Shown here: piece by piece, positions 3,635 through 22,857 of the stretch
Layout of the letters: every line of letters starts with the position of its first letter
Position numbering within the stretch: position 1 is the first letter of the stretch
Assembly (NCBI GenBank): GCA_026417375.1
Contig: JAOADJ010000027.1
Span: forward strand, 1-37,985
Direction: 5' to 3'
Source: Melioribacteraceae bacterium
GTDB taxonomy: Bacteria > Bacteroidota > Ignavibacteria > Ignavibacteriales > Melioribacteraceae
DNA length: 37,985 nucleotides
Translations under genes and position numbers: made by a program
The notes under the pieces: model-generated
The model's input: only the letters and a program-made list of their open reading frames with translations
Databases searched by the model: none
What the model was told of the DNA's origin: nothing

Positions 3635-5026
3635 ATGGATTATAGAATTGAAACAGATAGTATGGGAGAAATTCAGGTTCCAAATGACAAATATTATGGA
3701 GCTCAGACAGCAAGATCTTTAATGAATTTTAAAATTGGTGGTGAAAGATTTCCATCGGAATTGATACGCGCATTAGCAATAGTAAAAAAAGCAGCTGCAA
3801 TTACAAATAACGAACTTGGAATTTTACCAAAAGAAAAACTCGATTTAATAATTCAGGCTGCCGATGAAGTAATTGAAGGAAAATTAAATGACCATTTTCC
3901 ACTTGTAGTTTGGCAAACTGGTAGTGGCACTCAAACAAATATGAATGTTAATGAAGTTATATCTAACCGTGCAATTGAAATTGCTGGTGGTGTACTTGGA
4001 AGTAAAAAACCAATTCATCCGAATGATGATGTTAATAAAGCTCAATCAACAAACGATGCCTTCCCAACTGCTATTCATATTGCTGCAGTTGAAGAAATTC
4101 ACAGAAGACTAATCCCTATGGTAACTAAATTGCGTGATGCTCTTAATGCAAAAGCAATTGAGTTTAAAGACATAATCAAAATTGGCAGAACTCACTTAAT
4201 GGATGCAACACCTTTAACATTAGGACAAGAATTTTCTGGTTATGCTCAACAACTTACAAATGGTTTAGCAAGAATTAATGACTCACTTAAAAGATTATAT
4301 GAAATTCCACTTGGTGGAACTGCAGTTGGAACAGGTTTAAATACTCATCCCGATTATGCAGTAAAAGTTGCTGAAAAAATATCTGAGTTAACAGGTAAGA
4401 ATTTTATTACTGCACCGAATAAATTTGAAGCAATGGCTGGTAAAGATGCATTAGTAGAAATGAGTGGTGTATTAAAAACATTAGCAGCATCATTAATGAA
4501 AATTGCAAATGACATTCGTTGGTTAGGAAGTGGACCAAGATGTGGCATTGGAGAAATTTCTTTACCTGAAAATGAACCGGGTAGTTCAATTATGCCGGGC
4601 AAAGTAAATCCAACTCAATCTGAAGCAATGACAATGGTTTGTGCTCAGGTTTTTGGTAATGATGTAACAATTAATTTTGCCGGTGCAAGTGGTAATTTTG
4701 AATTAAATGTTTTTATGCCGGTTATTGCATTTAATATTTTGCAATCAATTAAATTATTAGCAGATGCTTGCGAAAGTTTTGCTGAACATGCTGTTGAAGG
4801 AATTGTTGCAAATGAAATTAATATTAAAAAACACCTCGAAAATTCTTTAATGCTTGTTACTTCATTAAATCCGGTTATTGGCTATGACAATGCTGCTAAA
4901 GTTGCTAAGAAAGCTCATAAAGAAAATAAAACATTAAAAGAAGCTGCTTTAGAATTAGGACTTCTGACTTCAGAAAAATTTGATGAAGTAGTTCGCCCGG
5001 AAAAAATGATTGGTCCCAAAGGATAA
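3635..5026 (+). CDS. fumC: Fumarate hydratase, class II
   Basis: Reversible hydration of fumarate to L-malate in the citric acid cycle; an iron-independent homotetramer. The start chosen is the ATG at 3635, preceded by GAGGAGG at 3622-3628, giving 463 residues starting [17 protein letters not shown] longer reading from TTG 3620 would run through the ribosome site and is rejected. Visible motifs are [15 protein letters not shown] (substrate site), [17 protein letters not shown] with the active-site His, and the superfamily signature [11 protein letters not shown] at about residues 315-325, with the catalytic Ser in its loop. The length matches class II fumarases. It is likely its own transcription unit, bounded by hairpins on both sides. 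Confidence 0.97.
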
Positions 5027-5043
5027 CATAATATTAATTTTTA

Positions 5044-5069
5044 TGTCACCCTTTTCAAAAAGGGTGACA
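5044..5069 (+). terminator. Hairpin after fumC, possible terminator
   Basis: A perfect 11-bp stem TGTCACCCTTT / AAAGGGTGACA with a 4-nt loop, 18 nt after the fumC stop and 11 nt before the next start. The stem is strong but only a short AATTT follows, so it is either a leaky terminator or an mRNA-stabilising 3' hairpin. Confidence 0.55.
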
Positions 5070-5079
5070 ATTTACAGCT

Positions 5080-5370
5080 ATGATTGACTTAAAGAAATTA
5101 ATTTTAATTTTCTTAATAATAAGTTGTACATCTTTAACTGAAAATTCTTCATTAACAAAAGGAACGGTTAAATATATTTCTTTGGAAGGGGGATTTTATG
5201 GAATCATTTCAGAAAACAATGAAAAGTTTGATCCAATAAATTTACCAAATGAATTTAAGAAAGATGGTTTAAAATTTTTGTTTTCATATAAGGAAAGAAA
5301 TGATTTAACAAGTATTCACATGTGGGGAAAAATTATTGAAATTATAGAAATAAAAATGGATATAAAATGA
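5080..5370 (+). CDS. Small putative lipoprotein, unknown function
   Basis: A 96-residue protein with a short hydrophobic N-terminus and a lipobox ending at Cys16 (IFLIISC), so it is probably exported and lipid-anchored. The mature part is small, with beta-type alternation (GTVKYISLEGGFYGIISE...) that could form an OB-like or small barrel fold; this is a guess. Not recognised. The stop overlaps the next ATG by 4 nt (ATGA), so it is translationally coupled to the membrane protein downstream. No clear ribosome site precedes it. Confidence 0.65.
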   Translation: MIDLKKLILIFLIISCTSLTENSSLTKGTVKYISLEGGFYGIISENNEKFDPINLPNEFKKDGLKFLFSYKERNDLTSIHMWGKIIEIIEIKMDIK

Positions 5371-6017
5371 ATTTTGATGGAATAATTTCACTTTTAATTG
5401 CGTGTATTGAATTAGTTTACATTATTAATGCTTTTATTTTTGGTAAAAAAAATTCTATTAACAAATTTACAATTGCAATTTTAGTTTTACTTTTTGGTTA
5501 TCAGTTTTTTGAATTTCTGATTTGTTTTGTCGGTTTGCAAAATCAAATTATAATTTACCTTGCAATGGTTGATATAACATTATTACCACCCCTTGGTTTA
5601 TACTCTTCTTTACTCTTCGCCGGAAAATTAAAAAATTATCATAAACTTATTTTTATCCCGGCATTTTTCTTTATTATTCTTTATGGTTTTTTAATTGGAG
5701 AATTAGCCGTTACTAAATGTACTGTTCTTTATGCTTCATATCATTATCCACTCGGCAATCTTTATGCAACATTTTATTATTTACCAATTATTGGTTCTAT
5801 GATTATATTAAACAAAAAATGGGGATTTGAATCTGACCCTAAAAAGAAAATGCTGACTAGAACATATTTCTTTGGCTTTGCATTTACATTTATACCCTCG
5901 ATGATTTTTGCATTATTCTTTCCAACATTTGTTCAGGCTGTAGAAAGTTTACTTTGCAAAATGGCATTCGTTTTAGCAACTTTTCTTTTCATCTTCATAA
6001 TTAAAAATAAAGAGTAA
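5367..6017 (+). CDS. Integral membrane protein with about seven helices, unknown
   Basis: A 216-residue polytopic membrane protein. Hydrophobic stretches sit near residues 5-25, 32-52, 58-85, 93-116, 125-150, 163-185 and 190-213, consistent with seven transmembrane helices and a short basic tail (FIIKNKE). Helix count and spacing resemble the seven-helix input domains found at the N-terminus of some histidine kinases and cyclases, but no output domain is attached. I do not recognise a family. It overlaps the lipoprotein gene by 4 nt, and the next gene starts one base after its stop, so the three genes likely act together. Confidence 0.7.
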   Translation: MNFDGIISLLIACIELVYIINAFIFGKKNSINKFTIAILVLLFGYQFFEFLICFVGLQNQIIIYLAMVDITLLPPLGLYSSLLFAGKLKNYHKLIFIPAFFFIILYGFLIGELAVTKCTVLYASYHYPLGNLYATFYYLPIIGSMIILNKKWGFESDPKKKMLTRTYFFGFAFTFIPSMIFALFFPTFVQAVESLLCKMAFVLATFLFIFIIKNKE

Positions 6018-8381: not shown

Positions 8382-10424
8382 TTGGAAAAAGAAAAAGTAT
8401 TAGTTACTTCTGCATTACCATATGCTAATGGAAAAATTCATTTGGGACATTTAAGCGGCGCTTATCTTCCAGCTGATATTTATGTGAGATATAAAAGATT
8501 AAATGGTGATGATATTATTTATATATGTGGTTCTGATGAACATGGCGTTCCTATAACAATAACAGCTGATAAAGAAAAAGTTTCTCCTCAGGAAATTATT
8601 GATAGATATCATGAATTAAATCGTTTAGCTTTCGAAAAATTTGGAATGAGCTTCGATATTTATTCAAGAACTAGTTTACCGATTCATCATCAAACCGCTC
8701 AAGAATTTTTTAAATGTTATTATGAACAGGGATTATTGGTTGAAAAAAAATCATTTCAATTTTATGATGAAAAAGCTAAAATGTTTTTACCGGATAGATA
8801 TGTTGAAGGAACTTGTCCACGTTGCGGAAACGAAGAAGCAAGAAGTGATGAATGTGAAAAATGTGGATCTCTTTACGATCCTTCTGAACTAAAAAATCCT
8901 AAAAGCAAAATTACCGGCGAAACACCGGTATTAAAGGAAACTTCACATTACTTTTTCCCTTTAGGTAAATATCAGGAAAGATTAGAAAAGTATATAAATG
9001 AATTGAGTGAAAAATATGGATGGAAAGAAAATGTAATTCAATATTGCAAAGGTTGGTTTAATGATGGTTTGAAAGATCGTGCTGTAACACGTGATTTAGA
9101 TTGGGGAGTAAAAGTTCCTTTGGAAAATGTTCAGAATAAAGTTCTTTATGTATGGTTTGAAGCTGTACTTGGTTATATTTCTGCAACTAAAGAATTATCT
9201 GAAAAGAGAAATGATTCAGAACTATGGAAAAAATATTGGCAGGATGAAAAAACAAAATACATTGCGTTTATTGGAAAAGATAATGTTGTTTTTCATACTA
9301 TTATTTTCCCTGCAATGTTAATGGCATGGAATGATGCAAATAAAGATAAATTTGTTTTACCACAAAATGTTCCGGCAAATGAATTTTTGAATTTTGAAGG
9401 GAAAAAATTTTCCAAATCACGTGGATGGGGAATTGACGTTGATGAATTTTTAGAATTGTTCCCGGCTGATTTATTACGATACACTCTTGCTGCAAATTTA
9501 CCTGAAAATAAAGACACCGATTTTTATTGGAAAGAATTTCAATCAAGAACAAATGGTGAATTGGCTGATATTTTAGGAAATTTTATTAATCGTACACTCA
9601 CTTTTACATTCAAACATTTTGATGGTAAAGTGCCTCAAAGAAATAAGTTAGAAAAAATTGATGAAGAAATGTTAGTTCTTGTTAAAGATGCACCACAAAA
9701 AATTTCTGACTTACTTGAAAAATTTAAAATAAAAGATGCCGTTTTTGAAATGCTAAATGTTGCACGTGCTGGAAATAAATATTTTAATGATTCTGAACCT
9801 TGGAAAACAATTAAAAATGATAAAGAAAAATGTTCTACTACAATTAATATTTGTCTCAACACTATTTTTACTCTTGCAGAAATTTTTGAACCGGTTATTC
9901 CTTTTACAAGTAAAAAAATATTTGAAATGTTAGATTCAACTCCAGTTGAATGGAAAAATTCTGGTCAAACAAATTTAAAAGAAGGTCATCAATTAAAAGA
10001 ACCAGAAATTTTATTTACAAAGATTGATGATAAAATAATCGAAGAACAAATAAATAAACTTCCTAAATCTGAAGAAATAATTATTGAAAAAGATGAAGAA
10101 ATAACAATAGAAGATTTTAAGAAAGTAAAATTAAAAGTAGCACAAATTGTTGCAGCTGAAAATGTTAAAAAGAGTGATAAATTATTGAAACTACAAATTG
10201 ATTTAGGAAATGAGAAACGTCAACTTGTAGCCGGAATTGCAAAAAGTTATTTACCTGAAGAATTAATTGGGAAAAAAGTTTTAGTTGTAGCAAATCTAAA
10301 ACCTGCAAAACTTTTTGGAATTGAATCACAGGGAATGGTTTTAGCATTAGATACTTCAGAAGAAGGAAAAGTAAAACTTATCGAAATAGATCAATCTATT
10401 CAGTTAGGAAAAACAGCTAAATAA
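8382..10424 (+). CDS. metG: Methionyl-tRNA synthetase
   Basis: Charges tRNA-Met with methionine. 680 residues with TTG start at 8382: an in-frame TGA lies just upstream and the conserved N-terminus (VLVTSALPYANGKIHLGHLSG, a HIGH-type motif) begins immediately. A four-Cys zinc knuckle starts at Cys145 (CPRCG...CEKCG). The KMSKS loop is KFSKS near residue 342. The C-terminal 105 residues form the tRNA-binding/dimerisation OB domain (DFKKVKLKVAQIVAAENV...LVAGIAKSY...GMVLA), so this is the full-length homodimeric form. No good Shine-Dalgarno sequence is visible. It appears monocistronic, after a terminator and with its own candidate promoter. Confidence 0.97.
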   Translation: MEKEKVLVTSALPYANGKIHLGHLSGAYLPADIYVRYKRLNGDDIIYICGSDEHGVPITITADKEKVSPQEIIDRYHELNRLAFEKFGMSFDIYSRTSLPIHHQTAQEFFKCYYEQGLLVEKKSFQFYDEKAKMFLPDRYVEGTCPRCGNEEARSDECEKCGSLYDPSELKNPKSKITGETPVLKETSHYFFPLGKYQERLEKYINELSEKYGWKENVIQYCKGWFNDGLKDRAVTRDLDWGVKVPLENVQNKVLYVWFEAVLGYISATKELSEKRNDSELWKKYWQDEKTKYIAFIGKDNVVFHTIIFPAMLMAWNDANKDKFVLPQNVPANEFLNFEGKKFSKSRGWGIDVDEFLELFPADLLRYTLAANLPENKDTDFYWKEFQSRTNGELADILGNFINRTLTFTFKHFDGKVPQRNKLEKIDEEMLVLVKDAPQKISDLLEKFKIKDAVFEMLNVARAGNKYFNDSEPWKTIKNDKEKCSTTINICLNTIFTLAEIFEPVIPFTSKKIFEMLDSTPVEWKNSGQTNLKEGHQLKEPEILFTKIDDKIIEEQINKLPKSEEIIIEKDEEITIEDFKKVKLKVAQIVAAENVKKSDKLLKLQIDLGNEKRQLVAGIAKSYLPEELIGKKVLVVANLKPAKLFGIESQGMVLALDTSEEGKVKLIEIDQSIQLGKTAK

Positions 10425-10511
10425 GTTTTGAAATATTTGATGAAACAATAAAAATTAATCAATGTTAAACAATCACAAATTTAATAAGTAGAAATAAATG
10501 GAGGAAACTGA

Positions 10512-12497
10512 ATGCGTTATACTAAGTTGTTATTTGCTGTAATATTATCATTTATCATAACATCATGTGCAACAGAACATTCCAAAATTGTTGTTGCAGA
10601 ATTCGGAAATCAGAAAATCTACTTAGGTGAATTTGAAAAAGCTTATTCTAAAAATGTTGGTGGAATTGAAAAGGCAAAAACAGATTCATTCCCTTCATAT
10701 CAAAAATTTATGGACTTGTACATTAATTATAAAATGAAATTACGTGATGGAGTTGTTCGTGGATATAATAAAGATGAAGATATGCAAAAAGAATACATTG
10801 ATTATAAAATTAATATTGGTTCAACATTATTTCTTGAAAGAGAATTATATGAACCAAACCTTAAACAGTTATATGAAAGAAGAAAAGTAGAATTTCGTGC
10901 AAGTCATATTTTCTTTAGAGAAGATTCTGTTTGGACAAAAGAAAAAATTATTGCTCATGCAAAAAAATTAATTGACAGCTTAAACAGAGGAGCAGATTTT
11001 GCAAAACTTGCGCGCGAAAATTCTAAAGATGAATATACTGCTTCACGCGGTGGTGATGTTTACTACTTCACAGCTGGTAGAGTAAATAGCCCAGTTATTG
11101 AAGATGTAATTTATTCTCTTGAACCAAACCAAGTTTATCAGGAACCAGTTTATTCAGGATTTGGTTGGCACATTTTAAAATTAACAGAAAAAAATCTTCG
11201 TCGCTCTGCAATAAAATGTTCTCACATTTTGATTAGAACTGAAGATTCAACAGGTGTTTACGATACTGTTAAACCTTACCAGAAAATAAAAGAAATTGAA
11301 GAAGAATTAAAAAAAGGTGCTGACTTTGGGGACCTTGCTCTTAAATATTCAGAAGATCCCGGAAGCAAAAATCAAAAAGGTGATTTAGGTTTTTTTGAAC
11401 GTGGTAGAATGGTGCCTGAATTTGATGAAGCTGCATTTAAATTAAAAGTCGGTGAAGTTTCTCCAATTGTTAAATCACAATATGGTTATCATTTAATAAA
11501 ACTTACTGATGAACAAAAACCAAAATCTTATGAAGAAGAAAAAGAAGATTTACGTGAAATGTTCAAACGTGTTCGCTATAAATCTGAAAATGAAAAACTT
11601 ACAGAAAAATTAAAAAGAGAATTTAATTTTACTTTAGTTAATGAAACTATTCAACAAATTAACCAGGACAAATCAGATTCAGTTCGTATTACACTTGATT
11701 ACAAATCAACAAATTTCTTTAAGAAATATGGAAACAAACCATTAATTAAATTAACAACCAGAACATTTAACGTTGATAGTTTATTTAGTTTTATGATTAA
11801 AAGTCCATCATATTTAGGACAATTTTTAGAACCAAAATTATTTGATAGAGCATTAAATCAATATGTATCTGAAATATTAGTAAGAGAAAAAGCATTGAAC
11901 TATGATAAAGAAGATAAAGAATTTGCTCAACTAATGGATGAATACAGAAATGGAATGTACCTCTTTAAAATTCTTGAAGAAGAAGTCTGGACAAAAGTTA
12001 ATATTGATTCTGCAAAAACAAAATTATTTTGGGAAAAGAATAAAGAAAAGTTTACATGGCCAAACAGAGTTGAATTCAAAGAAATTTATGTAAACAGCGA
12101 CTCACTTAAAAATGTAATTGCCGGATTATTAAAAAATGGTGCAAACTTCGACACACTTTACAATCGTTATAATCAAAGAACAGGTTATGAAAATAATCCA
12201 GGTTTTTATGGATTAGTTGATATAAACTCTAATGAACTTTCTAGAAAAGCAAATTCATTAAAAGAAATCGGACAAATATCAGAACCATTTAAATTTCAGG
12301 ATGGTTGGTCAATAGTTAAATTAATAAGGAAAGATTCTGCTCGCCAGAAAACTTATGATGAAGCTAAAATTGAAGCCGCAAGTATGTATCAGGAGTTTGA
12401 AAGTAAAAGATTAGAAGAAGAATATTTAACCAAATTGAAAAATTTATATAAACCAAAAGTTTATTATGAAGAGCTTAGAAAAGCTTTTAAAAATTAG
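10512..12497 (+). CDS. Peptidylprolyl isomerase lipoprotein with PpiC (parvulin) repeats
   Basis: A 661-residue envelope folding factor. The signal peptide ends at a lipobox with Cys19 (SFIITSC). Two clear parvulin domains lie at about 127-228 (FRASHIFF...GGDVYYF...GWHILKL) and 233-333 (CSHILIR...GGSK-type GDLGFFERGRMVPEFDEAAF...YGYHLIKL). A third degenerate parvulin-like module covers about 519-606 (EFKEIYVN...GFYGLVD...GWSIVKL). It catalyses cis-trans isomerisation at prolines and probably chaperones outer-membrane proteins in the periplasm. GGAGGAA at 10500-10506 supports the ATG. First gene of an envelope operon; the next gene overlaps it by 32 nt. Confidence 0.92.
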   Translation: MRYTKLLFAVILSFIITSCATEHSKIVVAEFGNQKIYLGEFEKAYSKNVGGIEKAKTDSFPSYQKFMDLYINYKMKLRDGVVRGYNKDEDMQKEYIDYKINIGSTLFLERELYEPNLKQLYERRKVEFRASHIFFREDSVWTKEKIIAHAKKLIDSLNRGADFAKLARENSKDEYTASRGGDVYYFTAGRVNSPVIEDVIYSLEPNQVYQEPVYSGFGWHILKLTEKNLRRSAIKCSHILIRTEDSTGVYDTVKPYQKIKEIEEELKKGADFGDLALKYSEDPGSKNQKGDLGFFERGRMVPEFDEAAFKLKVGEVSPIVKSQYGYHLIKLTDEQKPKSYEEEKEDLREMFKRVRYKSENEKLTEKLKREFNFTLVNETIQQINQDKSDSVRITLDYKSTNFFKKYGNKPLIKLTTRTFNVDSLFSFMIKSPSYLGQFLEPKLFDRALNQYVSEILVREKALNYDKEDKEFAQLMDEYRNGMYLFKILEEEVWTKVNIDSAKTKLFWEKNKEKFTWPNRVEFKEIYVNSDSLKNVIAGLLKNGANFDTLYNRYNQRTGYENNPGFYGLVDINSNELSRKANSLKEIGQISEPFKFQDGWSIVKLIRKDSARQKTYDEAKIEAASMYQEFESKRLEEEYLTKLKNLYKPKVYYEELRKAFKN

Positions 12498-16882: not shown

Positions 16883-17050
16883 ATGAACGCAGAATGCCCG
16901 GTATGTGGCGCACAAATTCAATTAGCGAGTGATGCAGTTCAAGGTGAATTACTTGAATGTCCTGATTGTGGAACTGAACTGGAAGTTGTTTCTGTTAATC
17001 CTCCTCAGGTTAAAGAAGCACCTCAAGAAGAAGAAGATTGGGGTCAATAA
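16883..17050 (+). CDS. lysW: Amino-group carrier protein LysW, ending in Gln
   Basis: A 55-residue carrier protein. In the LysW pathway the alpha-amino group of aminoadipate (or glutamate) is joined to the gamma-carboxyl of the C-terminal Glu of LysW, and the later enzymes act on the bound substrate. Two CxxC knuckles, Cys5/Cys8 (CPVCG) and Cys26/Cys29 (CPDCG), bind zinc, and the acidic tail EEEDWG is the classic recognition tail. The last residue is Gln55 (codon CAA, then TAA), where the family has Glu (EDWGE). A terminal Gln cannot be used directly by an ATP-grasp ligase without deamidation. AAGGA at 16871-16875 supports the ATG, and a strong promoter lies upstream. Confidence 0.95.
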   Translation: MNAECPVCGAQIQLASDAVQGELLECPDCGTELEVVSVNPPQVKEAPQEEEDWGQ

Positions 17051-18208
17051 TTGGTTTGGGTTTTAGATTCAACATTAAGAGAAGGTGAACAAACTCCTGG
17101 TGTTTATTTTGATAAACACATAAAGCTTGCTATTGCTAATCTTTTAGATGAAGTTGGAGTTGATATTATTGAAGCTGGCCATCCTATGGTTACACCAGAA
17201 ATTCATGCTGCAGTAAAATCAATTGCACAAAAAGGATTTAAAAGAATAGTTGGAGCTCATTCCCGTTCACTGATTTCTGATGTTGATTTAGCACTTGAAT
17301 GTGGTGTCGGTTTTATTGGAATATTTTATTGTGTATCAGATGAAAGATTAGAAACTGTGTTTAAAAAAGATTTATCGGGTGCTTGTCAATTAATAACCGA
17401 AGTTATTAAATATGCAAAGAATCAAAAACCTGATTTATTGATTCGTTACACTCCTGAAGATACAGTTCGTTCTCAATTTGAAAATGTAATTACAGCTGCA
17501 GTTGCAGCAGTTGAAGCTGGTGCTGATATTATAAGTGTTGCTGATACAACAGGTTATATGGTGCCAGGTACTTCAAGAAGTATGTATGATTATATTTCCA
17601 AATTAAAAGATGAGTTTACAAAAAGAAATTTATCACCTAAAATAGCTGTTCATTGTCACAACGATCGTGGATTAGCATTAGCAAATGCATTGGATGCGTA
17701 TAGAGCTGGAGTTGATATTATTGATGCTTCTGTAATGGGTCTAGGTGAAAGAGCAGGTATTGTCGATCTTGCTCAACTTTTAACAGCGCTTACTATTGAT
17801 TTTAACGAAAATAGATGGAATTTGAAAAAGTTGGTTGAGCTTTATGATCTTGTAAGCAAGCATTCTGGAATTCCTATACCGGCAAACTTCCCAATAACGG
17901 GAAAGAACGCTTTTACACATTGCGCCGGTGTTCACACTCATGCTGCTTCGGTCAACCCGATGCACTATGAAAGTTTAAATCCGGAAATTCTTGGAAGACA
18001 ACGAACATTTTCTCTCGATCATATGTCGGGTATTGCATCGCTAAGGTATGCACTTGCACTTATTGATGAGAGTTCTCTTGATGAAAATCTTCAACTTGAC
18101 GTTTTAAGAGAAGTCAAATCTGTTGGTCAACGTGGTCGCACTGTTGATCTCTCCGAATTAAAGCATATCATTGATGCAGTAAAGCATCACCAAACTTACT
18201 CTAAGTGA
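17051..18208 (+). CDS. lysS: Homocitrate synthase-like enzyme (LeuA/HCS family)
   Basis: 385 residues, DRE-TIM metallolyase. It begins with LDSTLREGEQTPGVYF (catalytic Arg and metal Asp) and carries IIEAGHP, VADTTGYMVPG, the metal motif HCHND (His201, His203) and GLGERAG. It condenses acetyl-CoA with a 2-oxoacid; in this cluster 2-oxoglutarate is the likely acceptor, giving homocitrate, the entry to the alpha-aminoadipate route to lysine. It lacks the long C-terminal LeuA regulatory domain, having only a short one, which fits homocitrate synthase better than isopropylmalate synthase. The TTG start directly abuts the lysW stop. Substrate is inferred from context. The gene symbol is provisional. 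Confidence 0.85.
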   Translation: MVWVLDSTLREGEQTPGVYFDKHIKLAIANLLDEVGVDIIEAGHPMVTPEIHAAVKSIAQKGFKRIVGAHSRSLISDVDLALECGVGFIGIFYCVSDERLETVFKKDLSGACQLITEVIKYAKNQKPDLLIRYTPEDTVRSQFENVITAAVAAVEAGADIISVADTTGYMVPGTSRSMYDYISKLKDEFTKRNLSPKIAVHCHNDRGLALANALDAYRAGVDIIDASVMGLGERAGIVDLAQLLTALTIDFNENRWNLKKLVELYDLVSKHSGIPIPANFPITGKNAFTHCAGVHTHAASVNPMHYESLNPEILGRQRTFSLDHMSGIASLRYALALIDESSLDENLQLDVLREVKSVGQRGRTVDLSELKHIIDAVKHHQTYSK

Positions 18209-18266: not shown

Positions 18267-19145
18267 ATGAAGGTAGGTATGCTTCATTCATTAATTCGTA
18301 AAGATGAAAAATTTCTAATTGATGAATTCAGAAAAATCAAAGGCGTTGAATTGGAATTAATTGATGATCGTGAAATTTCTTTTACACTTGGAAAAAATGA
18401 TTACGATTATGATGTAATTGTTGAAAGATGTATTAATCACTCACGAGCTTTGCATGGATTAAAACTTTTTGAAACTGCCGGTATTAAATGCGTAAATAAA
18501 TATTCTGTTGCAACTATTTGTGGTGATAAACTTTTGACTTCGTGTGCCTTAGCAGAAAATAATGTTCCGCAACCTGAAGTTCGTGTTGCTTTTACTGAAG
18601 AATCTGCTCTTAAAACAATTGAAGAAATGGGTTATCCGGTTGTTCTAAAACCAGCAGTTGGTTCATGGGGCAGGTTACTTTCAAAAATAAATGATCGTGA
18701 TGCAGCTGAAGCAATTCTTGAACACAAAACAATTCTCGGTTCTTATCATCATTCTATTTTTTATATTCAAAAGTATGTTGAAAAAGCACGAATTGTAAAT
18801 GGAGAAAAATTACCCGGTCGTGATATTAGAAGTTTTGTTGTTGGTGATAAATGTATAGCTGCTATTTACAGAACTTCACCACACTGGATTACAAATACTG
18901 CTCGTGGTGGTAAAGCAACAAATTGTCCTGTAACTGATGAATTAAATGATATTTCCGTTCGTGCTGCTAAAGCTGTTGGTGGTGGTATTGTTGCTATCGA
19001 TATTTTTGAAACTGAAAATGGGTTAATGGTTAATGAAGTTAATTACACAATGGAATATAAAAACAGTATTGATACTACTGGTGTAAATATTCCTCAAAAA
19101 ATGGTTGAATATATTTTACAAGTTGCAGAGGGAAGAAATGACTAA
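18267..19145 (+). CDS. lysX: LysW ligase LysX/ArgX, RimK-like ATP-grasp enzyme
   Basis: 292 residues. Uses ATP to join the alpha-amino group of alpha-aminoadipate (LysX) or glutamate (ArgX) to the C-terminal gamma-carboxyl of LysW. ATP-grasp features are [20 protein letters not shown] (glycine-rich loop region), [20 protein letters not shown], then ARGGKATN and [21 protein letters not shown] at the metal and substrate end. The last segment looks like LysX rather than a generic RimK, which together with the homocitrate synthase favours aminoadipate. ATG at 18267 follows TAGGAG. Its end overlaps lysY by 8 nt. It would need LysW with a free gamma-carboxylate, which the encoded Gln terminus does not provide. 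Confidence 0.92.
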
Positions 19146-20184
19146 AATAAAAGTTTCAATAGTTGGAGCATCAGGATATACCGGTGGTGAATTATTAAGA
19201 TTACTTTTATTTCACCCTAATGTTGAAATTAATCAGGTTACATCAGAAAGTTATACAGGAAAATTTGTTTATAAAGTTCACCCTAATTTAAGAAAAGCTA
19301 CTCAACTAAAATTTTCTTCTGCTTCAGAATTACAACAATGTGATTTATTATTTCTATGCTTACCACATAATAGTTCTCAAAACAAAATTGATTTCTATAA
19401 ATCAATTGCTCCTAAAATAATTGATCTTAGTGCAGATTTTAGATTGAAAGATCCAAATGAATATGAAAAGTGGTATGGACATAAACATTCACGCCCGGAG
19501 TTATTAAATGAATTTGTTTATGGAATTCCTGAATTACATCGTGAAGAAATGAAAAAAGCAAACTACATTTCTAGTGCAGGATGTAATGCAACAGCAAGTA
19601 TTTTAGGTTTATATCCATTATTTAAAAATGATTTAGTTTATGAAGATAGAACAGTAATTGAAGTTAAAGCAGGTTCAAGTGAAGGTGGCAATAAAGTAAA
19701 CGAAGGTTCTCATCATCCAGAAAGAAGTGGTGTTGTGCGTTCATATATGCCAACAAAACATCGTCATACCGCTGAAATTTTACAAGAACTTTCTTTTGGT
19801 AAAAATATTCATGTGCATTTTTCTGCAACTGCAATTGATATTGTTCGGGGATTGCTTGCAACTTGTCATGTCTTTCTTAAAAAAGATTTACAAGAAAAAG
19901 ATATATGGAAAATTTATAGAGATGCTTATGGTAACGAGCCATTTATAAGAATTGTAAAAGAAAATGATGGAATTTACCGTTATCCTGAACCTAAATTATT
20001 ATCAGGCACAAACTATTGTGATATTGGATTTAAAAAAGATGAATACTCAAACAGACTTGTTGTAATAAGTGCAATTGATAATTTAATGAAAGGAGCAGCT
20101 GGTCAGGCTCTTCAGGCATTTAATATTATGTTTGGCTTTGATGAAAGAACTGGTTTGGAATTTACCGGCTTACATCCAATTTAA
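19138..20184 (+). CDS. lysY: LysW-aminoadipate semialdehyde dehydrogenase (LysY/ArgC)
   Basis: 348 residues from ATG 19138, which overlaps the lysX stop in ATGACTAA and follows GAGGGA; a longer reading from TTG 19105 lies inside lysX and is rejected. NADPH-dependent reduction of the LysW-bound acyl phosphate to the semialdehyde. N-terminal Rossmann motif [18 protein letters not shown], active-site Cys149 in [10 protein letters not shown] and His in [10 protein letters not shown], and the ASD-family end [14 protein letters not shown]. It is an ArgC homologue; the cluster places it in the carrier-bound pathway, possibly serving both lysine and arginine. The 81 nt after it hold only a weak 6-bp inverted repeat (20186-20202). 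Confidence 0.93.
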
Positions 20185-20265: not shown

Positions 20266-20913
20266 ATGTGCAGACTACTTTACGTTAATACAAAACATGA
20301 AACAGAAATTGAAAAATATCTTTATCATTTCTCTTTAATTTCAAAAAATAGTAAAGAGTATCAGGGACATGGTTGGGGCTGTGCATATTTTCAGAATAAT
20401 GAGTGGAAATATTATAAAAATATAAAACCAATTTGGGAAGACAATATTTCTCAGTTTGGAAAAGCAACCAGAATAATTGCCCACGCAAGAAGTGCATTCA
20501 AAGATGAAGGTATTGTCATTGAAAATAATATGCCTTTTTATGACGATAAAAATATTTTTGTTTTTAATGGTGAACTTCGTGGAGTTAAAATAAAAGAAGA
20601 GGGAAGAATTGGTGCCGAAAAAATTTTCAATTTTATTAAAAGATTTGATAAAGGAAATTTTTTTGATGCATTAAAAAAAGGGACTGATATTATAATAAAA
20701 AAATCGAATTATGTCAGAGCTATGAATATTATTATTACTTCAACTAAAAATTCAGCTTTATTATTTACATTTTATAATGAAGATGAAGATTATTTTCAGA
20801 TGTGGAAAAAACAAAATCATGATGAGTTAATAATTTGTTCTCAACCTTTTTCATTAGATATTGAATGGGAACCGATAAATAATAATTCAATATTGGAGTT
20901 TAAATGTATATAA
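20266..20913 (+). CDS. Class II glutamine amidotransferase-like Ntn hydrolase in the lys cluster
   Basis: 215 residues, a stand-alone glutaminase-type domain (YafJ-like). MCRLLYV places the nucleophile Cys2 at the N-terminus after Met removal. IIAHARSAF supplies the Arg (Arg75) that in class II enzymes binds the substrate alpha-carboxylate. FVFNGELRGV gives the oxyanion-hole Asn101-Gly102. The Asp that in GlmS (Asp123, in SETDTE) and YafJ (GETDSE) binds the alpha-amino group of free glutamine is replaced: the aligned segment is GRIGAE, with Gly116 in its place. No synthase domain is attached, and no step of the known LysW pathway needs ammonia. It overlaps lysZ by 10 nt. A proposed role is deamidating the C-terminal Gln of LysW; other side-chain amides or a plain glutaminase are alternatives. 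Confidence 0.88.
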   Translation: MCRLLYVNTKHETEIEKYLYHFSLISKNSKEYQGHGWGCAYFQNNEWKYYKNIKPIWEDNISQFGKATRIIAHARSAFKDEGIVIENNMPFYDDKNIFVFNGELRGVKIKEEGRIGAEKIFNFIKRFDKGNFFDALKKGTDIIIKKSNYVRAMNIIITSTKNSALLFTFYNEDEDYFQMWKKQNHDELIICSQPFSLDIEWEPINNNSILEFKCI

Positions 20914-21695
20914 TTAAAATTGGTGGTGGTAAAGAAATTAATATTAAAGGAATTATTTCTGATTTATCAACATTAAACGAAAAATTTATTATTGTTCATG
21001 GGGCAAATGCTTTGCGTGATGAACTAGCTCAAAAATTAAATTATCAAAAAAGAATTGTTACATCAATTTCTGGTTATGATTCAGTTTTCAGTACTGAAGA
21101 AACTATTGATTTAATGATGATGGCTTATGCAGGATTAAGAAATAAAAGGATTGTTGAATTATGTCAACAGAATAATATTAACGCTGTTGGTTTATCTGGT
21201 TTAGATGGAAAAGTTATTCAAGGAAAAAGAAATAGCGGTATTAAAGTCCGTGAGAATGGTAAAACATTATTGCTAAGAGATTTTTCAGGAAAACCAAAAT
21301 CAATTAATGTTTCTTTGTTGAATTTGTTATTAGAAAATGGTTATACACCTGTTTTAAGTGTACCAATTATTGATGAAAATAATTTTGCTATCAATTCCGA
21401 AAATGATGATATAGTTGCACTTCTTCAAAATGAATTAAAAGCTGAAAAAAATATTTCACTAATTGAAGCACCCGGATTCTTACTTGATAAAAATGATAAT
21501 ACTTCATTGTTAAAAAAAATTTCAAAAAATGAATTAGCTATAATGGAAGAAAAAGTTGAAGGTAGAATGAAAAGAAAAATTCTAGCATTAAGAAAATTGT
21601 TTGAAGCAGGTGATACAACTGTTATTATTTCTGATGGACGAACTGAACACCCAATTTTAGATGCACTAAATGGTAACGGAACAACTATTTCCTGA
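20904..21695 (+). CDS. lysZ: LysW-aminoadipate kinase (LysZ, ArgB-like)
   Basis: 263 residues of the amino-acid kinase family. Phosphorylates the distal carboxylate of LysW-bound aminoadipate (or glutamate). The start IIKIGGGKEI carries the Lys-Gly-Gly ATP loop; FIIVHGANALRDELAQKL follows, then NAVGLSGLDGKVIQGKRN, the LLRDFSGKP segment and the late MKRKILALRKLFEAGDTTVIISDGR. The usual nucleotide motif IN.D....A reads INSENDDIVALLQ. The long GKRN...KVRENGKTLLLRD hairpin resembles LysZ rather than classic ArgB. Its ATG lies 10 nt inside the amidotransferase-like gene, so the two are translationally coupled. Confidence 0.9.
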   Translation: MYIIKIGGGKEINIKGIISDLSTLNEKFIIVHGANALRDELAQKLNYQKRIVTSISGYDSVFSTEETIDLMMMAYAGLRNKRIVELCQQNNINAVGLSGLDGKVIQGKRNSGIKVRENGKTLLLRDFSGKPKSINVSLLNLLLENGYTPVLSVPIIDENNFAINSENDDIVALLQNELKAEKNISLIEAPGFLLDKNDNTSLLKKISKNELAIMEEKVEGRMKRKILALRKLFEAGDTTVIISDGRTEHPILDALNGNGTTIS

Positions 21696-21702
21696 GGAGA
21701 AA

Positions 21703-22857
21703 ATGAAAAATTATAAATCACTTATACAGCAATATGAAATTGACGTTTACCCAAGACGAGATGTAACATTAGTTAAAGGTGAAAATTCAAAAGTCTGGGA
21801 TGACGAAGGAAATGAATACATTGATTTAGCTTCAGGTATTTCTGTGGCAAATGTTGGTCACTGTAATCCAAAAGTTGTTGATGCTATTACACAACAAGCC
21901 AAAACATTAATTACTTGCCCAAATACTTTTTACAATGACACAAAAGCAATTTTTCTTGAAAAATTATTTTCTATAGCTCCAAAAAATTTAACTAAAGCAT
22001 TCTTAACAAATTCCGGAACCGAAGCAATTGAAGCCGCAATTAAATTTGCAAGAGCTAATACAAAGAAAACTAAATTTATTGCAGCAATGAAAGGTTTTCA
22101 CGGAAGAACTTATGGCGCATTAAGTGCAACTTATAAAAAAGAATATCGTGAAGATTTTGAACCACTAGTTCCCGGTTTTTCTTTTGTCCCTTTTAATAAT
22201 TTTGAAAAACTTGAGGAAGCAATTGATGATGAAACTGCAGCTGTAATATTAGAATTAATTCAAGGTGAAGGTGGAATTAACATTGGACAAAAAGAATATT
22301 TTCAAAAAGTTCGTCAATTATGCAGTGAAAAAAATATTTTATTGATTATTGATGAAATTCAAACTGGTTTTTGCAGAACAGGGACAATGTTTGCAATTGA
22401 ACAATATGGAATTGAAGCTGATATGATGACTCTGGCAAAGTCAATAGCTGGTGGTTTTCCTATGGGAGCGTTGCTTTGTTCCGAAAAAATTAATATTGAA
22501 AAAAGTAAACATGGTTCAACTTTTGGAGGCAATCCTTTAGCTTGTGCGGCAGGTAACGCGGCAATTGATTATATGCTTGAAACAAAACTTTGGGAACAAG
22601 CTCAGGAAAAAGGAAAATACTTTAAAGAAAAATTATCTTCTTTTAATCTTTCAAAAGTCAGAGAAATTAGAGTAATTGGTTTAATGATTGGTATCGAGCT
22701 AAAAGAGAAACCTCAGCAAGTTATAGTTGAATTATTAGAAAGAAAAATTTTGTCATTACCTGCTGGTGTAACTGTTTTAAGATTGCTTCCACCACTAACT
22801 ATAACTTATGAAGAACTTGACAGAGCAATTCAAATTCTTGCTGAAGTTTTGGCTTGA
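21703..22857 (+). CDS. lysJ: LysW-lysine aminotransferase (LysJ/ArgD family)
   Basis: 384 residues from ATG 21703 with GAGGAGA at 21693-21699; a start at 21670 would lie in lysZ without a ribosome site and is rejected. PLP-dependent transfer of an amino group from glutamate to the LysW-bound semialdehyde. Motifs: DLASGISVANVGH, LTNSGTEAIEAAIKFAR, GFHGRTYGALS, IDEIQTGFCRTGTMFA and TLAKSIAGGFPMGA with the Schiff-base Lys246, then HGSTFGGNPLACAAG. Class III, acetylornithine-aminotransferase-like; dual use in arginine synthesis is possible. Last gene of the cluster. Genes for homoaconitase, homoisocitrate dehydrogenase, LysK and LysN are not in the window. Confidence 0.93.
   Translation: MKNYKSLIQQYEIDVYPRRDVTLVKGENSKVWDDEGNEYIDLASGISVANVGHCNPKVVDAITQQAKTLITCPNTFYNDTKAIFLEKLFSIAPKNLTKAFLTNSGTEAIEAAIKFARANTKKTKFIAAMKGFHGRTYGALSATYKKEYREDFEPLVPGFSFVPFNNFEKLEEAIDDETAAVILELIQGEGGINIGQKEYFQKVRQLCSEKNILLIIDEIQTGFCRTGTMFAIEQYGIEADMMTLAKSIAGGFPMGALLCSEKINIEKSKHGSTFGGNPLACAAGNAAIDYMLETKLWEQAQEKGKYFKEKLSSFNLSKVREIRVIGLMIGIELKEKPQQVIVELLERKILSLPAGVTVLRLLPPLTITYEELDRAIQILAEVLA

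Follow-up and report, generated by a model that had tools for sequence, protein, structure and literature searches.

What might a stand-alone class II Ntn protein do in the middle of a gene cluster for lysine biosynthesis on the carrier protein LysW? The question is raised by the window analysed here, a stretch of 37,985 nucleotides from a Melioribacteraceae bacterium (contig JAOADJ010000027.1), in which the gene for such a protein stands among the lys genes (Table 1). From the computed gene order, co-occurrence with LysW, residues and fold, and from the lack of a LysK above the cut-off, we infer a reaction and roles for the conserved residues, and we consider it probable that the gene encodes a [LysW]-lysine hydrolase that is not orthologous to LysK and takes its place.

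Table 1. Features of the lys cluster in the window.
Feature	Coordinates	Strand	Remarks
lysW, carrier protein	16883..17050	+	55 aa, ends EEDWGQ; TIGR01206 76.8 bits, cut-off 53.2
homocitrate synthase-like gene, HMGL family	17051..18208	+	best model TIGR02146, 340.5 bits, below cut-off 413.55
lysX, ATP-grasp ligase of LysW	18267..19145	+	TIGR02144 over cut-off; motif read
lysY, ArgC-type reductase	19138..20184	+	TIGR01850 416 bits, over cut-off; ATG at 19138 from sequence
candidate [LysW]-lysine hydrolase (putative LysK substitute), EgtC-like Ntn protein	20266..20913	+	215 aa, ATG start, begins Met-Cys-Arg
lysZ, [LysW]-aminoadipate kinase	20904..21695	+	NF010659 over cut-off
lysJ, class III aminotransferase	21703..22857	+	TIGR00707 over cut-off; LysJ model 451 bits, below cut-off 700

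Gene order and co-occurrence with LysW

The cluster of the window, which lies in a genome of 2.83 Mb that is 99% complete, has the order lysW - homocitrate synthase-like gene - lysX - lysY - Ntn gene - lysZ - lysJ. An earlier note made from the window had described a stand-alone class II Ntn protein encoded between lysY and lysZ and overlapping lysZ. This description was correct: the open reading frame at 20266-20913 shares 10 nt with lysZ, whose ATG is at 20904. For lysJ, the start was read from the sequence as the ATG at 21703, which follows GAGGAG, the mechanical ORF start being 21670. The sole Pfam match of the Ntn protein is to GATase_4 (PF13230), over the gathering score (31.1 vs 23 bits).

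For 90 of 98 distinct homologues, lysY, the Ntn gene and lysZ were present on one locus. In 89 of these 90 loci the Ntn gene is located between the other two on the same strand, with median gaps of 22 and 0 nt, and the only exception to this order (L064) is due to a contig break. In one locus (L181), 4.6 kb separate lysY from the Ntn gene. The remaining 8 homologues have no lysY or no lysZ on the locus, some of them lying at contig ends and some in split clusters (L133, L150, L168). These three split clusters are gammaproteobacterial and carry lysY with the Ntn gene, lysZ and lysJ not being found on the locus.

The Asn-Thr of the HWITNT motif is present in 85 of 89 LysX matches, second copies counted. 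It appears to be the same pair as the Asn-Thr of the aminoadipate-specific LysX of Sulfolobus, as given in PMC10433800. Since this pair is common, the loci have the appearance of lysine clusters, and this holds also for the gammaproteobacterial ones without a nearby homocitrate synthase. Paired adjacent LysX-like ligases, one of which is without Asn-Thr, were observed in three loci (L180, around 4196-5900; L181, around 10135-12000; L153, around 4236-5944); these are possibly a LysX and an ArgX sharing one carrier and one hydrolase.

The distribution of the gene was analyzed in 97 genomes, comprising that of the window and its relatives. The Ntn gene is present in 35 and LysW exceeds its cut-off in 33; all 33 genomes with LysW over the cut-off carry the Ntn gene, in agreement with the assignment of the protein to the LysW pathway in the earlier note. 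Two of the 64 genomes without LysW over the cut-off carry the gene as well (G002, 77% complete, and G042, in 460 contigs), flanked in each case by further lys genes (L071, L072). In a set of 395 Bacteroidota, the same 20 genomes hold both LysW and the Ntn gene, 17 of them being already part of the 97-genome set. In the phylum of the archaeal carrier G468 (193 genomes), all 5 LysW genomes carry the Ntn gene, two of these (G468 and G486) being carriers known beforehand. In the phylum of G488 (198 genomes), the gene is present in 2 of the 3 genomes with LysW over the cut-off (G488, a carrier known beforehand, and G828) and absent from the third (G711); LysW matches at E <= 1e-7 occur there in 9 genomes, and G754 was left out of the locus inspection. 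For these two phyla combined, the Ntn gene is present in 7 of 8 genomes with LysW over the cut-off. Co-occurrence of clustered genes owes partly to common descent.

GTDB contigs were also scanned with the Ntn protein, and the best 80 of 235 relatives were taken. Among these 80, carriers are titled Ignavibacteria, Calditrichota, KSB1, Gammaproteobacteria, Deltaproteobacteria/Binatia and Woesearchaeota/Archaeon AR15. No match to the Ntn enzyme was found in 72,556 plasmid records at E <= 1e-5, and no relatives of the Ntn enzyme or of Deinococcus LysX were found in viral contigs.

Some LysW-like proteins occur in another setting. Two genomes encode LysW-like proteins that score below the LysW cut-off and end in DWDE (G023, L055:5432-5590) and DWDD (G038, L054:5738-5902); LysX, LysY, LysZ and the Ntn gene were not found on either locus, L055 having a LysJ-like gene, and these proteins may be carriers that serve some other function. 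Four loci (L191-L194) in the phylum of G488 encode LysW-like zinc ribbons without a DWGE/DWGQ tail, and lys genes were not found on these loci.

LysK in genomes with and without the Ntn gene

LysK is an M20 metallopeptidase described by the model TIGR01902. It was not found over the cut-off in any of the 97 relatives, of 44 further carrier genomes or of 12 chosen LysW genomes, the last two lists sharing G468, G486 and G488; in the control, the cut-off was exceeded in 4 of 14 genomes. The archaeal carriers G468 (Archaeon GW2011_AR15, one chromosome record of 1.16 Mb) and G601 gave no LysK candidate even in a loose first look. No LysK-like M20 gene was found in the 124 loci with the Ntn gene, which range from about 2 to 20 kb. 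As LysK was not found in the carrier genomes, there is an obvious role for the Ntn protein.

A distant M20 or other hydrolase might instead be the true LysK, in which case the Ntn protein would be a regulator or a proofreader stripping mis-loaded amino acids from LysW. Below-cut-off M20 proteins are present in 41 of the 97 relatives at E <= 1e-20, and one of those found in carriers could be a distant LysK. However, these matches are not tied to the LysW cluster, being found independently of the Ntn gene (18/35 carriers vs 23/62 non-carriers, p 0.2); 17 of the 35 carriers have none at this threshold, and G468 and G601 are without any candidate. We therefore regard this alternative as unlikely. 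Of the 4 non-Ignavibacterial loci with named flanks, 2 have an M20 or amidase gene of another subfamily in their vicinity. These genes encode an M20-type amidohydrolase (TIGR01891; L116:405-1595, minus strand) and an AtzE-like amidase (L130:1828-3186, plus strand), each some kilobases from a gammaproteobacterial lys cluster; both are probably unrelated to the hydrolase step, and still count as possible rivals.

LysK-type systems were sampled via plasmids and solved structures. In 9 plasmid LysW/LysX loci, a LysK-like M20 gene is present in 6 (Deinococcus 1, Streptomyces 5) and the Ntn gene in none; these controls omit H22, one of 9 LysW-bearing records, and the LysX-bearing H8 and H10-H13, H8 being the same as H22. 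On the Deinococcus plasmid, W-X-Y-Z-J are followed by an annotated [LysW]-lysine hydrolase and the Ntn gene is absent. The other three plasmid loci (L171, L207 and L209) have neither the Ntn gene nor a LysK-like match within the short stretch examined; an annotated M20 lies at the edge of the stretch in L209, and L171, from Thermomicrobium, has LysX, LysW not being found. We expected LysK in G711, which has a LysW-X-Y-Z-J cluster without the Ntn gene (L188). No LysK over the cut-off was found in this genome, the contig of the cluster ending after lysJ, nor in G721, where a LysW-X-Y locus (L190) is cut before lysZ.

The candidate hydrolase would resemble LysK in the proposed reaction and in its place in the pathway. 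In contrast, the Ntn protein belongs to an unrelated family with a Cys nucleophile instead of a metal, and its gene lies between lysY and lysZ whereas lysK follows lysJ in Deinococcus.

Active site and fold of the Ntn protein

The Ntn protein of the window has Cys2, His73-Ala74-Arg75-Ser76-Ala77, Asn101-Gly102 and Gly116. Cys2, Arg75 (in HARSA), Asn101-Gly102 and Gly116, which had been singled out in the earlier note, are all invariant in 60 of 60 homologues, whose records bear the titles Ignavibacteria, Gammaproteobacteria, Deltaproteobacteria/Binatia, Calditrichota, KSB1 and archaea; because Gly116 was invariant in a separate count of 35 of 35 homologues as well, its presence is not due to chance. 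When the Ntn protein was aligned jointly with GlmS and 4 EgtC-like proteins, 3 of which pass the EgtC cut-off, Cys2, Arg75, Asn101 and Gly102 were shared by all five. Column 116 holds Gly in the Ntn protein and Asp in the 4/4 EgtC-like proteins and in E. coli GlmS (SETDTE), so that the Asp previously placed there in GlmS was found where expected. In class II enzymes, the Asp binds the amine of the substrate and the Arg binds the carboxylate. Loss of the Asp with retention of the Arg predicts a gamma-glutamyl substrate whose alpha-amine is peptide-bound.

An AlphaFold2 model of the Ntn protein, built with 60 homologues, has a mean pLDDT of 93.6. Its nearest solved fold is that of EgtC, an Ntn amidohydrolase of ergothioneine biosynthesis (TIGR03442; PDB 4zfj/4zfk/4zfl), with Z 25.9 and an rmsd of 1.8 Å over 201 residues at 17% identity; Foldseek likewise puts EgtC first. 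The glutaminase domains of GlmS and PurF come next, with Z 21-22 (GlmS 21.9). A single-sequence PDB search gave a weak match between EgtC and the Ntn protein, and a PDB profile search with the Ntn family matched only a spurious designed filament.

The likeness to EgtC includes the N-terminal Cys2-Arg3 and the Arg and Asn-Gly motifs, and would extend to function: EgtC is a stand-alone hydrolase acting on a gamma-glutamyl amide within a biosynthetic pathway, an activity that is proposed for the Ntn protein as well. According to PMC11993508, the sulfur of the ergothioneine pathway comes from gamma-glutamylcysteine and EgtC cleaves off glutamic acid. The two proteins nevertheless differ in several respects. 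The Ntn protein scores 47.6 bits against the TIGR03442 cut-off of 218.65, it has Gly at the site of the amine-binding Asp, and the distance from Asn-Gly to position 116 is shorter than in 3/4 EgtC-like proteins and in GlmS. In addition, its gene is LysW-linked and not part of an egt cluster.

The GATase_4 assignment is what would be expected of an ordinary glutaminase or amidotransferase subunit feeding ammonia or glutamate into the pathway, and the fold, the Cys, the Arg and the Asn-Gly are indeed shared with class II glutaminase domains such as those of GlmS and PurF. The Ntn protein, however, stands alone, no synthase partner being found among its conserved neighbours; Gly occupies, in all 60 homologues, the position that would hold the amine of free glutamine, and the substrate proposed here is peptide-bound. 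Moreover, no ammonia is required where LysJ supplies the amino group by transamination. Supply of ammonia by the Ntn protein was rejected, and a glutaminase role in general is very unlikely.

Proposed reaction, the tail of LysW and LysA

The Ntn gene recurs in lysine clusters across many unrelated bacteria, and in some archaea, where LysK was not found, and its product most likely performs the last step of the pathway. LysX would join 2-aminoadipate to the gamma-carboxyl of the C-terminal Glu of LysW, LysZ, LysY and LysJ would convert the bound aminoadipate to lysine, and the Ntn enzyme would then free lysine from LysW. In the studied systems described in PMC10433800, LysX attaches its amino acid to LysW through the gamma-carboxyl of the C-terminal Glu; LysW-lysine is thus itself a gamma-glutamyl amide, and unlike the substrate of EgtC it has its alpha-amine tied up in a peptide bond. 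In the proposed mechanism, Cys2 would attack the gamma-carbonyl of the C-terminal glutamyl residue and lysine would leave, after which water would hydrolyse the gamma-glutamyl thioester and regenerate LysW-Glu. The free alpha-carboxylate at the C-terminus of LysW would be bound by Arg75, and the oxyanion hole would be made up of Asn101/Gly102. Gly116 would have replaced the amine-binding Asp because the amine of the C-terminal residue is engaged in a peptide bond.

The LysW of the window ends in Gln, as the earlier note had read it, and the 3 solved LysW end in EDWGE. From this Gln it had been proposed that the Ntn protein is a dedicated deamidase that turns a pro-LysW ending in Gln into a LysW ending in Glu ahead of ligation by LysX, with no part in the release of lysine. 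That LysX ligates to a terminal Glu wherever this has been studied speaks for such a step, and the missing Asp suits a peptide-bound residue. However, the Ntn gene is also present with Glu-ending LysW. In the clusters of the relatives, the LysW tail is Glu in 23 of 33 cases and Gln in 10; tails could be read for 78 of the 98 distinct homologues, giving Glu in 53, Gln in 25 and nothing else. A confinement of the Ntn gene to Gln-ending LysW is ruled out by these counts. A dedicated deamidase, which would also leave the LysK step unfilled, is therefore very unlikely. What stands of the original argument is the fit of the lost Asp and the retained Arg to a peptide-bound LysW C-terminus; its extension to a dedicated maturation of Gln is unsupported.

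The hydrolase that we favour could deal with both tails. In this sub-case, the same active site would hydrolyse the side-chain amide of a Gln-ending LysW to produce the first Glu, by a chemistry identical to that of lysine release, so that one Ntn enzyme would both free the product and activate the carrier. Encoded Glu and Gln would then be interchangeable and the catalytic Glu need not be encoded, which would allow drift between Glu and Gln in carrier lineages and would explain the changes between them, of which at least 13 were counted on a quick tree of the Ntn enzyme in which 43 of the 95 inner branches have weak support. The restriction of all 78 readable tails to Glu or Gln is consistent with this, as is the Glu at the end of 12 of 12 LysW seen without the Ntn enzyme (8 plasmid-borne, 3 solved and that of L188), although so few enzyme-less LysW make for a weak test of whether Gln is confined to carriers. 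A C-terminal Gln could also lose its amide spontaneously or by the action of another protein. We hold this double function only tentatively, at a little under an even chance, and deamidation of LysW-Gln by the Ntn enzyme may well take place, as a side benefit and not as the reason for the gene.

The analysis puts forward a candidate for the final reaction of lysine biosynthesis on LysW, which is otherwise missing in the carrier groups. If it is true, the generic GATase_4 family label is to be corrected, lysine prototrophy becomes predictable in these groups, and a second, cysteine-based chemistry exists for unloading an amino-group carrier protein. A literature search that covered few subscription journals gave no report naming the Ntn enzyme of LysW clusters. 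The nearest published statement, in a paper on Caldithrix abyssi, is a remark on non-orthologous displacement; the Ntn gene is present in a metagenome-assembled Caldithrix sp. genome (L149).

The carriers also differ from non-carriers with respect to LysA. LysA over the cut-off is missing in 18/35 carriers vs 10/62 non-carriers (p 4e-4) and, when genomes at least 90% complete are considered, in 11/28 vs 8/55 (p 0.025). Among single-contig carriers, G013 lacks any LysA match at E <= 1e-20, and in G048 all LysA matches fall below the cut-off. LysA-less carriers such as these probably depend on the LysW route, and lysine must then be freed from LysW somehow. The genome of the window has LysA over the cut-off (336 bits), as do 16 other carriers, so that in these genomes the LysW route need not be the source of lysine. 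By score, LysA divides into a strong class (above 380 bits), found in 51 of the 62 non-carriers and 6 of the 35 carriers, and a weaker one (320-360 bits), found in 11 carriers including the genome of the window; the latter may represent a decarboxylase with a different substrate specificity.
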